A stretch of 64,000 nt of DNA from the NCBI RefSeq assembly GCF_029227915.1, contig NC_079888.1, positions 19,446,001-19,510,000 of the forward strand. Reading direction: 5' to 3'. Under the pieces are notes generated by a model. That model worked only from the letters and a program-made list of their open reading frames with translations. It was not told the DNA's origin and did not search any database. This document shows positions 658 through 43,262 of the stretch, in pieces. Origin of the DNA: Hydractinia symbiolongicarpus (taxonomy: Eukaryota; Cnidaria; Hydrozoa; Anthoathecata; Hydractiniidae). The position numbers were made by a program, and so were the translations under genes. The stretch's first letter is position 1. Each line of letters opens with the position of its first letter.

Positions 658-3600
658 CTACTTTTCGTCAGAATTTATGATGGAACCAACTTCATCATAA
701 CCTAAGCGTTTATTAGTGTCTGCCTTGCCAGCATCTTTATCAAGTAGAGGTGTTTCAATTTCATTCTTTTGATCATTTTCACAATATACAGTTGCATATT
801 CCGATTTTTTCGCTTGATCTTGTTTCACTTGCGCAACATCGTACTGGTCATAGATGTGTTCGGGGGGCTGTTGGTCCGTAGTATATAAATTATTTTCGCT
901 TTCTCTATTTGGCATGCCAGTAACAACGTCTGTAGAAGGCTTGTAGTAGATGCTTGTAGCTTCTTTGTTTGTGGATGCAGGCTGAAGTAATAAAAAACTA
1001 AATCGTGCAATGGAGATTTCCAGTGCTAGACGTCTACGCAATATTAAGTACTTATTTTCTGACATTTCTGATATTTTCCCTCATTCTATGAGGCATTTTG
1101 GACTTGTACAGATATTCCTAAATGTTTCCAAAGTAAAACATAAATTTAATACAAGCGTATATATAAAATTGACGAAATTCAGTCTTTGCCAATATTATTT
1201 TAAATAAAAATCCAGACAGACAGACAGACAGACAGACAGACAATGCATCTTACTTACTTTACCATGATCAAGACTTGCATATGCATACACGTTCTGTTTA
1301 CTAGAAGGTACATCAGCTGGTTTTATGTTGGTTTCTGTAGAATAAAACAATTCATGAAGTTAAAATTATTTCTAATAAGTGAACAGTTTACAGTCGCTTT
1401 AAAGAAGAACCTCACAATCCGACAAATAAACCCCATTATTTTACCAGTTCTATATATCAAAACCTGTAATTTGTTTAAAAATCCCTACTTCTAGCCTAAC
1501 ATACATAAAGCACAACGGCACATTTGTAGATTTTTCCACAAACTACTGTCTAGTTTGTCGCAAACACACAACTTCGAAGTTATTGATGCAAGATGGGATA
1601 GGAATCTTTCTCCCAAGTAATATATCGTGCTACACGACTACGGCTAGGTCTGTCTTCTTTTTGACACTTCCTGTTACAATGCCTGGTATAGTTATGTGCA
1701 TAATTACTGTCTTGTATATTTGTAAGCAGTTGGCTTGCAACAAAACATATGGTTCTCCACATAGCAGACTGTTATAATAGTAGACTGTTATGAAATGAAA
1801 CCTCATTTCTACCTAAACATGATTTTTTCTCATGTGAAACTATTGCGCACATGTACGAAGCTACTGCGTGTGTTCAAGAGGTTATTTCGCATGTGTACAA
1901 AGAAACCTTATTTCGCTAAGTTAATAACTACCAAAAAAACCAACGCTGTTTAATACACATATTTTTTAAACACATTTTAACAAAAGTAGAATCATAAAAA
2001 GTCATACAGCGTAGAGCAGAAAAAAAAAACAAATTTAAAAATAACTGGAGATAATATTTTTTATCTTTCTTCGAAGTGATTGGAAAACAATGTAAGATAC
2101 CTTCATAAGTAGGATTTCCAGTCTCGGCGTATATGTGTTCATCAGCTACAGAAAAATTTATAACAGTACTTTTATTCTGTTTACACACCAAACAAGTAGA
2201 AACCAACTCTCATGTTAACCGACCACCACTTTGCAGAGCAAAGGAATACACCTTTCTTAAATTTCACTAAACAATATTTCTTGGCTTTTTAATGTTGATT
2301 TAATTTTAAAGAGAGGCCAAATAATTATCGCTGATGCATTTGTCATTAAAAAAATCTTTTTTTAATACCCGAATACGTGTATTCGTCACGCAAAATGGTA
2401 CCACAAGTAGCGAGACGCACGTAGTACGGCAAAAAAAAGGACAGGCGAACCCGTGGATTTTTCTACCATGCCATGTACTAGTTGTATATACTGTTTGGTG
2501 TCAAAATTTGAAACTGAATAAACTTTTAGAGGTTTTTTAAGGTTTGTTATCCATGACAAAATTTGATTTAAGGAAGGATGGAATTAAAAGAGAATTCGAC
2601 AATATACATTCAAATATATGCAATACATAAACTTAATTCTGTATTACTTTCCAGAAATATATATAAAATGAAATAAAAAAACTTTTTTCATCTATAAATA
2701 ATAAAGAAGCAAAAAAACACATATTCATGCCGCCAAAAAGGGTATGCTTTACAAGATCAGATTATCTCAAAGAATCCATGAGTCAGTTTTAAATTTTGAA
2801 ATTGTGCTCCAACTTTTCAGGTAATTTCAAATTCACTTTTAATCATGGATATATTAAATATTTAAAAATTTTTGTCAACAATTGAGAATGTCAAAAATAA
2901 TATACCTTCTTTTAGCTGCTTTGCTTGTGTTGTTCTTAAAAAGAGAAAAATGTTGCAGTAGAGCACAACAATAAACCAAAATTTAGGTTCATGACAAAAA
3001 AAAAAATATATATTACAAACTCTTTTAAAAAGAGACATTTCAATGACAGACTCTGAAAGCGTCTGCTTTATACAATACTGTTAAAAGAACTTATATATTT
3101 TAGAAATGTTGCTATTTGATGAAAAATGATACAAGTTTTAAAATTTTCCAATTTTTCCTGAGCTGTAAAACCTGCATGACAACTATAAAAACAACTTTGT
3201 TCACCTTGGTTGTTTACGCCGTCGTCGAATAAGATAAACAATAACAATTAGCAACACAATAATAACAACAATAACAACAACAACAACAACTCCAATGATG
3301 ATTTTTTTATTATTTTCTTTCTCTTGTTGTGGTACAAACACCTACAAAGGTAAAAAAAAAAAGGTTTTGAAATCATCATCTAACAGGCCAAGGGAATGAA
3401 GTGTTGATAACCACTTTGTGGAAGCAAAACATGGTATGAACAATCCTATGATGGTAAAAACAATTAATGATCAACACTTAGGAAACATTGAAAAGGTATA
3501 ATTGTTACATCTGTCAACAGTGACAATGATGAGATTATTAGTTGATCAATACAAACTAATGGTAAAAAGATGTACATATTCTATAATTCAGCCTCACAAG

Positions 3601-42200: not shown

Positions 42201-43262
42201 GGTTATAAGGACAGACTTGATACAGAGGAAGTTGAGTTTAGATCTAACACAGTCTAGATCAGATTGGAAGAGGGTCATTAATATACCCCGTCCAACCCAT
42301 GCTAGCATGGAAAACGGACTGAATGATGATGATGATGAAAGCTCAGTTTGAAGTACTTTCAATTCCCTTTAACTTTTAGAGGGAGGGGGTGTTAATTGGA
42401 GAAGCGTTAAATAAAGACTAAGTGTTTATTAATAAAAAAACTAAAAAAAAAATGAATTCCTTAAAATATATTCTTTTAATAATTTAATTTTATTCTCTTT
42501 CTTTGTGAAATTTTAATTTATGTGACACCAGGTGTTTGGAACTTGTAATAAACATGAAAATAGAAAGCATGTTTATAGTACAATATCTTACTGTGCAGAA
42601 TTACCAAGCTTACTTACCAACTGAATGGTCTGCAACAAGATGACCGCATTTTGTCAGTCTTCGCCTACAGCAAATAATAAATGTTATACGTAATTGCTAA
42701 AACCGTAATGTTTTGATAACCATAGCGCAAAGTGGTAATCACCTTTTTCGCCTTTTCTGGACCCGCAACAGAAAAACAACAAGAACTGATATGCAGATTA
42801 CAACAATCACTGTGATAACTATAATCACAACTATGTTTCCTTTACCATCATCTTTGTCATTATTCGTTGTGGTCTCCTATATGAAAAATAGAAATACTCT
42901 TTACATGGATTGTAAGGTATTGCAATAAAAAACGGAATGCTGTACTTATTAATAATGCTAAAAAAAATTGGTGCTATAAGTAAACCATTTCAGTAATACT
43001 GAAGATATATGATTAAAAATATTTTTAAAAAAGGATATAAAAGGATCAATAAAAAACAAAATAATAAAAAAAATAAAATAAAAAGTATATAGATGTAAAC
43101 AATGGATGAGAAAGAAATTTTACTGCTAGAGATCTAGTCAATGAAATAGGGATATATGTCACCCCCCATGGAGGGATTTGATTCGATTGAATAAAGAGGA
43201 ACACAGTAAACAGTAGATACATACTCACAGTTGTATTTCTGTTCATAACAGTGCAAGGTAAA
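39278..43262 (-). CDS. Gene E: receptor family member, 5' part missing
   Basis: Exons: tentative stalk end 43229-43262, transmembrane 42743-42876, 42618-42664, 40877-40947, 39278-39625 (stop). From the TM exon onward the phases (0,2,1,0) agree with the family. The TM exon reads ETTTNNDKDDGK... followed by a Val/Ile helix and a basic RVQKRRKR stop-transfer. The next exon has CGHLVAD, like CAHYVVD in gene C. Tail: NIYVTDEHL, then in the last exon SNYIKV, HIYTEP, DYEYAY, NPLYLS (NPxY), NIIYKAS and NYVDM (a YxxM PI3K-type motif). The separate 45-nt NPxY exon was not found. No signal-peptide exon or Cys modules are visible upstream to 64000. An RTE LINE lies about 0.7 kb upstream. The gene is either a 5'-truncated relic or has far-off or strongly diverged exons. 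Confidence 0.55.
42124..42340 (+). mobile_element. RTE LINE 3'-end fragment
   Basis: About 215 bp matching the 3' end of the element at 43974-44774 (AAGAAAGTGTAGAGAC..., ATATACCCCGTCCAACCC, GAAAACGGAC) with a (GATGAT)n tail. It is a 5'-truncated insertion in an intron of gene E, antisense to the gene. Confidence 0.8.

Follow-up and report, generated by a model that had tools for sequence, protein, structure and literature searches.

Five units, A to E, lie on the minus strand between positions 658 and 42876 of a 64,000-nucleotide stretch of the genome of Hydractinia symbiolongicarpus (hereafter the window: NC_079888.1 of assembly GCF_029227915.1, positions 19,446,001 to 19,510,000, forward strand), and all five follow one exon order. 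An exon for a signal peptide and cysteine (Cys) module 1 is followed by exons for module 2, module 3, a Thr-rich stalk, a membrane helix, three short tail exons and a Tyr-rich last exon, with modules of about 75, 75 and 47 residues. The exons were drawn by eye on the minus strand, and the joins were then verified by script. Genes B (17538-10736, 6.8 kb, nine exons, 450 residues), D (36696-27626, 9.1 kb, nine exons, 486 residues) and C (25895-19999, 5.9 kb, seven exons, 314 residues) are open from ATG to stop with GT-AG introns, and the incoming phases of exons 1–9 are 0,1,0,1,0,2,1,1,0 in B and D alike. In C, profile searches and enumeration found neither module 3 nor a stalk exon between exon 2 and the membrane exon; because this missing pair is a phase 0-0 unit (exon 2 ends in phase 0, the phase in which the membrane exon starts), the gene stays in frame without it. 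Gene A (8930-658, 8.3 kb, nine exons) has its reading frame disturbed at the stalk exon, which does not keep register with the exons on either side; a search for a convincing in-frame replacement found none. Unit E (42876-39278, about 3.6 kb) comprises membrane and tail exons only: profiles of modules 1–3 searched over the remaining 21 kb (43-64 kb) found no ectodomain exon (best E value 0.56) among stop-to-stop open reading frames (ORFs) of at least 20 residues, the profiles being blind to shorter exons. The array is a real, partly decayed tandem receptor family of a known general kind. The original prediction, made from the sequence, of five same-strand genes of 6-9 kb each was right about the number of units, their strand and their exon order, but C lacks two exons, A is broken, no ectodomain exon was found for E and the size range did not hold.

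Database searches tied two of these models to named proteins, all matched proteins being from Cnidaria, Hydrozoa, Hydractiniidae. The spliced protein of B, searched at E values up to 0.001 (2715 candidates from 5.77 billion), returned a single match, the uncharacterized protein LOC130626203 isoform X2 of H. symbiolongicarpus (P0001; 347 residues, 100% identity), and that of D, searched up to 1 (3597 candidates), returned only LOC130626201 isoform X2 of the same species (P0002; 339 residues, 100% identity). P0001 is identical to residues 104-450 of hand-spliced B and P0002 to residues 148-486 of hand-spliced D, in each case to the last letter, and all exon 2 to exon 9 junctions of B and D are therefore also present in NCBI-named models. 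Both proteins start at an internal Met within exon 2, and neither contains module 1 or the signal peptide. The Met at which P0002 starts is not the first Met of exon 2 in D, which suggests alternative 5′ ends without a signal peptide. Because the protein searches returned no full-length match to B or D spanning exons 1-2, that junction rests on conservation, namely the recovery of module 1 by profile and the phase-1 donor that ends exon 1 in A, B, C and D.

The searches with B and D that had been proposed as a check thus yielded exact database models but no other relative, and each missed the paralogue: the B search did not return P0002, nor the D search P0001, and a profile of A–D (E value up to 1) missed P0002 even though D had gone into it. 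Because such searches miss relatives at paralogue distance, lineage restriction of the family is unproven. These results also bear on the possibility, which we consider doubtful, that the array is mostly a relic in which B and D are the only working genes. The broken frame of A, the truncation of E next to a retroelement fragment, and the return of only B and D by the protein searches (with A and C not used as single queries) would all fit such a relic. C, however, is in frame over seven exons, and because the A–D profile also missed P0002, an exact match to its own member D, the absence of A and C from the search results says little.

To assess the homology of the exons, we used leave-one-out searches, running a profile built from the other copies against the window's 2109 ORFs minus the training ones. 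For module 1, each of A–D was recovered at rank 1 by the profile of the other three (E values of 2.2e-22 to 4e-21, with runner-up ORFs at 0.02 to 0.21; the strings used end one residue beyond the splice donor), and all four copies keep six cysteines, spaced C-x6-C-x(3-5)-C-x2-C-x-C-x12-C, as counted by eye in alignments. Module 2 was recovered by sequence only in B (E value 0.0048) and C (2.2e-8); because its recovery was weak in A (rank 8) and D (rank 3), its assignment there rests on position and phase. Module 3 of D was also weak (0.038, with a runner-up ORF at 0.087). The membrane exons ranked first in all five units (1.1e-10 to 0.021), but in the B test a plus-strand ORF with no relation to the family scored 0.00078, beating D's own 0.021, so this recovery is partly one of composition. 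The last exons likewise ranked first in all five, with weak E values (0.0012 to 4.4). Pairwise identities were 34-44% for exon 1, 14-29% for exon 2, 20-37% for exon 3, 22-48% for the membrane exon and 14-38% for the last exon. The predicted exon homology is therefore strong for module 1 of A–D but weak for module 2 of A and D and module 3 of D. The broader claim of a tandem, strongly diverged transmembrane family with Tyr-rich tails is supported. Between units E and D, an ORF at 37507-37599 (minus strand) shows similarity to the second half of module 1 (E values of 0.02 to 0.21) and is perhaps a decayed exon.

The outer part gave no match in the comparisons made. For B, C and D, Pfam searches at E values up to 5 gave only below-cut-off matches, to stalk, membrane or tail; for the ectodomain of A they gave no match, and sequence profiles of PDB entries gave nothing credible for the ectodomain. 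AlphaFold models of the ectodomain were too weak for naming a fold, and Foldseek and VIA-align, run from these weak models, gave no structural match. Judged by these comparisons, the outer part matches no domain model tried and appears to be an unrecognised one. The ectodomain had been described as not an obvious immunoglobulin (Ig) fold, which agrees with the lack of an Ig match in the Pfam searches (ectodomain of A; B, C and D), although the models are too poor to exclude such a fold. In the literature searched, which covered few subscription papers, LOC130626203 was not named (LOC130626201 was not searched), and no recognisable account of the array family was present among cnidarian receptor families, as judged from listings, the beginnings of abstracts and passages of PMC8260672 and PMC11999971; the family is seemingly undescribed, in line with the claim that it is an unrecognised one.

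Hydropathy profiles show a hydrophobic start in A–D and a hydrophobic segment in A–E, and the membrane helix of P0001 was modelled with a block pLDDT (predicted local distance difference test score) of up to 98; structure prediction, also proposed as a check, thus succeeded for this helix but not for the ectodomain. The proteins are predicted to be type I single-pass receptors with a signal peptide, one membrane helix and a cytoplasmic tail. A charged membrane residue is the basis of pairing with a DAP12-type adaptor chain. In all five membrane exons the most hydrophobic 21-residue segment is free of charged residues, and there is therefore no sign of such pairing.

The tails of A to E carry 12, 15, 8, 11 and 10 tyrosines, respectively. 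We counted twelve motifs in the five tails and in 5000 shuffles that preserve composition only. NPxY occurred at six sites, with at least one in every tail, compared with a shuffle mean of 0.19, and 0 of 5000 shuffles reached six. A, B and C share their NPxY as a homologous site in exon 7, and exon 9 holds the others, two in D and one in E. Counted once, the shared site leaves a fair total of four, and four or more were seen in 2 of 50,000 shuffles and six or more in 0 of 50,000. Together with NPxY, NxxY (13 vs 4.52 expected, P 0.0002) and Y[ASTN]E (7 vs 1.54, P 0.0004), in both of which homologous sites were each counted, were the only motifs that would survive correction for twelve motifs. 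The others were YxE (11 vs 5.09, P 0.009), YxxV (7 vs 2.96, P 0.02), YxxP (5 vs 2.23, P 0.06), YxxM (3 vs 1.27, P 0.13), YxN (1 vs 4.56, P 0.99) and Yxx[LI] (4 sites in three of five tails vs 4.81, P 0.74). The tails had been predicted to bear immunoreceptor tyrosine-based activation or inhibitory motifs (ITAMs or ITIMs), which was not borne out: none of the five contained an ITAM (Yxx[LI]x6-12Yxx[LI]) or an immunoreceptor tyrosine-based switch motif (ITSM), and ITIM-like sites ([SIVL]xYxx[ILV]; 4 in three of five tails vs 1.73 expected, P 0.09) were not significantly enriched. The motif content instead points to tails of a phosphotyrosine-binding (PTB) type, in which NPxY would be a dock for PTB adaptors, as in engulfment and endocytic receptors. 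Because exon 7 has a length divisible by three in A–D (45, 45, 42 and 54 bases), it could be skipped without a change of frame, and the NPxY of A–C could thereby be dropped by splicing.

Among known NPxY receptors, MEGF10 and Draper carry NPxY and an ITAM, and CED-1 carries NPxY and YxxL, and NPxY may bind CED-6 without phosphorylation, according to PMC8092387. The array resembles these receptors in being single-pass and in combining NPxY, in five of five tails, with further tail tyrosines, but it differs in the absence of an ITAM from all five tails and in its short ectodomain. Because an ITAM and any match to an EMI or EGF domain are lacking, we limit the likeness to the tail and do not claim membership. 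Another proposal would be that these are endocytic or nutrient/matrix receptors in which NPxY serves to signal internalisation, the remaining tyrosines being incidental. NPxY in every tail fits this proposal, which we nevertheless regard as unlikely: with 8 to 15 tyrosines, several in contexts common to the copies, the tails exceed what endocytosis needs.

Our preferred explanation, to which as a whole we give about an even chance, is a tandem family of type I receptors that arose by ancient duplications and whose outer part has since diverged strongly. Innate sensing, clearance or cell contact would be its likeliest role, rather than allorecognition of the kind served by the Hydractinia allorecognition complex (ARC). 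The Cys-rich outer modules would bind a ligand carried by a cell, a particle or the matrix, and in B and D the Thr-rich stalk, probably O-glycosylated, would keep the modules off the membrane. Ligand binding would cluster the receptor, whose tail tyrosines a Src-type kinase would then phosphorylate; NPxY would be the dock for PTB adaptors like CED-6/GULP, Dab or Shc, perhaps even when unphosphorylated, while other tail tyrosines would recruit SH2 proteins, and the proteins so recruited would drive uptake, adhesion change or signalling. Several observations weigh against this explanation. With the NCBI-named models beginning in exon 2, module 1 and the signal peptide may be missing from some transcripts; in this assembly the frame of gene A is broken and unit E is incomplete; exon 7 of D is without NPxY, and exon 7 of E was not found; NPxY is a short motif that also serves plain endocytosis, and its enrichment was measured against shuffles that keep composition only; and no EMI, EGF-like or NIM domain matched in Pfam up to an E value of 5 (ectodomain of A; B, C and D).

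The same tails could belong to locally duplicated developmental receptors for cell contact or adhesion with no immune role, since PTB/SH2-type tails also occur in adhesion receptors and our analysis gave no immune evidence. We judge this improbable, as outer modules that diverge so strongly, and a copy such as C that has lost modules, would be less expected of conserved developmental receptors. The KIR and LILR clusters, too, consist of stalked receptors that diverge within tandem arrays. The array differs from those in having no Ig match, no ITAM in any of five tails and no significant enrichment of ITIM-like sites.

The location of the array bears on whether it could act in allorecognition. 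PMC11876637 places the ARC on chromosome 3 and counts 40 Alr and Alr-like genes in it and three beyond it, none of which bears the numbers of the array genes; PMC13119343 also places the ARC on chromosome 3. The chromosome-level assembly has its scaffolds numbered by length, with an L50 of 7 and an N50 of 33,314,500 (PMC10411563), and chromosome 3 is therefore at least 33.3 Mb long. Because the sequence record that carries LOC130626203 and LOC130626201 is 24,932,500 bp (24.93 Mb), chromosome 3 is a very improbable location for the array, provided that the record is one of the length-numbered scaffolds. In addition, crosses in three backgrounds rejected modifiers unlinked to the ARC (PMC3276163). 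Because the array very probably lies off chromosome 3 and unlinked modifiers were rejected, an allorecognition role is unlikely, and the allorecognition cluster that had been suggested is disfavoured. By their published description, Alr1, Alr2 and the Alr-like proteins share with the array the species, clustered paralogues, a single-pass form and a diverged outer part (PMC11067881), and the Tyr-rich array tails recall the Alr tail motifs, which PMC3276163 likens to immunoregulatory ones. The array differs very probably in its chromosome, by the length argument, and thus in lying outside the ARC, and in its Cys modules, NPxY tails and lack of a Pfam Ig match. The Alr family is further marked by high allelic polymorphism and homophilic binding; the present analysis covered one haplotype.

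A second self/non-self receptor cluster outside the ARC, whether for allorecognition or immunity, therefore strikes us as quite unlikely, although several features speak for it: the copies are in tandem and diverged (exon 2 14-29% and exon 1 34-44% identical), the tails are Tyr-rich, and the species is a cnidarian whose allorecognition system has been cloned. Birth-and-death gene families contain decaying copies, which A and E resemble. On the other side stand a very probable location off chromosome 3, by record size, the rejection of ARC-unlinked modifiers in all three backgrounds and the lack of an ITAM in five of five tails. More improbable still would be the fullest version, a second, ARC-independent recognition family with a new Cys-rich fold and PTB signalling, by which cells that are foreign or altered would be sensed and whose NPxY dock would be switched by frame-neutral exon splicing.

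The window also holds repeats and other elements. In intron 1 of gene A, a stretch at 5965-6036 (plus strand) has a tRNA-like Rfam match of 38 bits; because ARAGORN makes no call there and the sequence around it has a relative at 59933-60172 (61% identity as translation), it is probably a tRNA-derived short interspersed element. The same intron contains a perfect (AAT)85 array at 6223-6477, likely a length-variable marker. Fragments of a LINE-like (long interspersed) element occur in both orientations at 43949-44745 (plus) and 60445-62154 (minus), with remnants at 42109-42348 and 46427-46546; copies carry RVT_1 matches and are about 70-97% identical to one another as translations. One reverse-transcriptase fragment, at 43949-44263 (Pfam RVT_1 E value 7e-6, below its cut-off), lies about 1 kb upstream of unit E. 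A large inverted repeat at about 53.5-54.85 kb has arms of about 300 bases with 85-100% identity as six-frame translations. Related tandem repeats of 115-117 bases, in opposite orientation at 49868-50128 and 52122-52434, flank plus-strand ORFs at 51051-51557 and 51673-51987, neither of which had a Pfam match better than an E value of 0.09; the former had no PDB match up to 1.

Exons of the five units, with positions in the window and the evidence for each (E, E value in profile searches).
Unit	Feature	Position	Strand	Evidence
A	Exon 1, signal peptide and Cys module 1	8651..8930	-	Leave-one-out profile E 2.1e-21; phase-1 donor
A	Exon 2, module 2	5473..5714	-	Position and phase 1-0; sequence alone not significant, rank 8
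A	Exon 3, module 3	5114..5255	-	Leave-one-out E 2.4e-5
A	Putative Thr stalk exon	4727..4792	-	Breaks frame
A	Exon 5, transmembrane helix	3205..3341	-	Join check, leave-one-out profile
A	Exon 6, juxtamembrane	2906..2934	-	Splice sites, length, alignment
A	Exon 7, 45-base cassette with NPxY	2101..2145	-	Joins, motif, alignment
A	Exon 8, tail	1258..1334	-	Joins, alignment
A	Exon 9, Tyr-rich last exon	658..981	-	Joins; rank 1, E 0.09
B	Exon 1, signal peptide and Cys module 1	17262..17538	-	Leave-one-out E 2.2e-22; outside P0001
B	Exon 2, module 2	15704..15933	-	P0001 starts within
B	Exon 3, module 3	15403..15544	-	P0001 exact
B	Exon 4, poly-Thr stalk	15018..15073	-	P0001 exact
B	Exon 5, transmembrane helix	13422..13561	-	P0001 exact; modelled helix, high pLDDT
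B	Exon 6	12776..12819	-	P0001 exact
B	Exon 7, phase 1-1 cassette with NPxY	12267..12311	-	P0001 exact
B	Exon 8	11623..11696	-	P0001 exact
B	Exon 9, Tyr-rich last exon	10736..11080	-	P0001 exact
C	Exon 1, signal peptide and Cys module 1	25616..25895	-	Leave-one-out E 6.2e-22
C	Exon 2, module 2	24779..25023	-	Leave-one-out E 2.2e-8
C	Transmembrane exon	22933..23075	-	Follows exon 2 directly, phase 0-0, frame kept; leave-one-out profile
C	Exon 6	22676..22716	-	Joins, alignment
C	Exon 7, phase 1-1 cassette with NPxY	21474..21515	-	Joins, motif
C	Exon 8	20539..20600	-	Joins, alignment
C	Exon 9, Tyr-rich last exon	19999..20130	-	Joins; rank 1, E 0.42
D	Exon 1, signal peptide and Cys module 1	36417..36696	-	Leave-one-out E 4e-21; outside P0002
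D	Exon 2, module 2	35815..36032	-	P0002 starts within
D	Exon 3, module 3	35335..35473	-	P0002 exact
D	Exon 4, Thr-rich stalk	33697..33917	-	P0002 exact
D	Exon 5, transmembrane helix	32842..32987	-	P0002 exact
D	Exon 6	32052..32086	-	P0002 exact
D	Exon 7, phase 1-1 cassette with YxxM, without NPxY	30483..30536	-	P0002 exact
D	Exon 8	29995..30059	-	P0002 exact
D	Exon 9, Tyr-rich last exon, two NPxY	27626..27928	-	P0002 exact
E	Transmembrane exon	42743..42876	-	Leave-one-out E 9.2e-6
E	Exon 6	42618..42664	-	Phase 2-1
E	Putative exon 8	40877..40947	-	Phase 1-0 only; weak
E	Exon 9, Tyr-rich last exon, one NPxY	39278..39625	-	Rank 1, E 0.074; runner-up ORF 0.1

Studies of recognition in Hydractinia have so far concentrated on Alr genes, which are Ig-like and belong to a single chromosome. 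For the array described here, adhesion, uptake or innate sensing is likelier than allorecognition, and LOC130626201, LOC130626203 and their neighbours offer testable candidates for receptors that take part in uptake, in the sensing of microbes or in contact between cells in H. symbiolongicarpus, a species with a published cell atlas.

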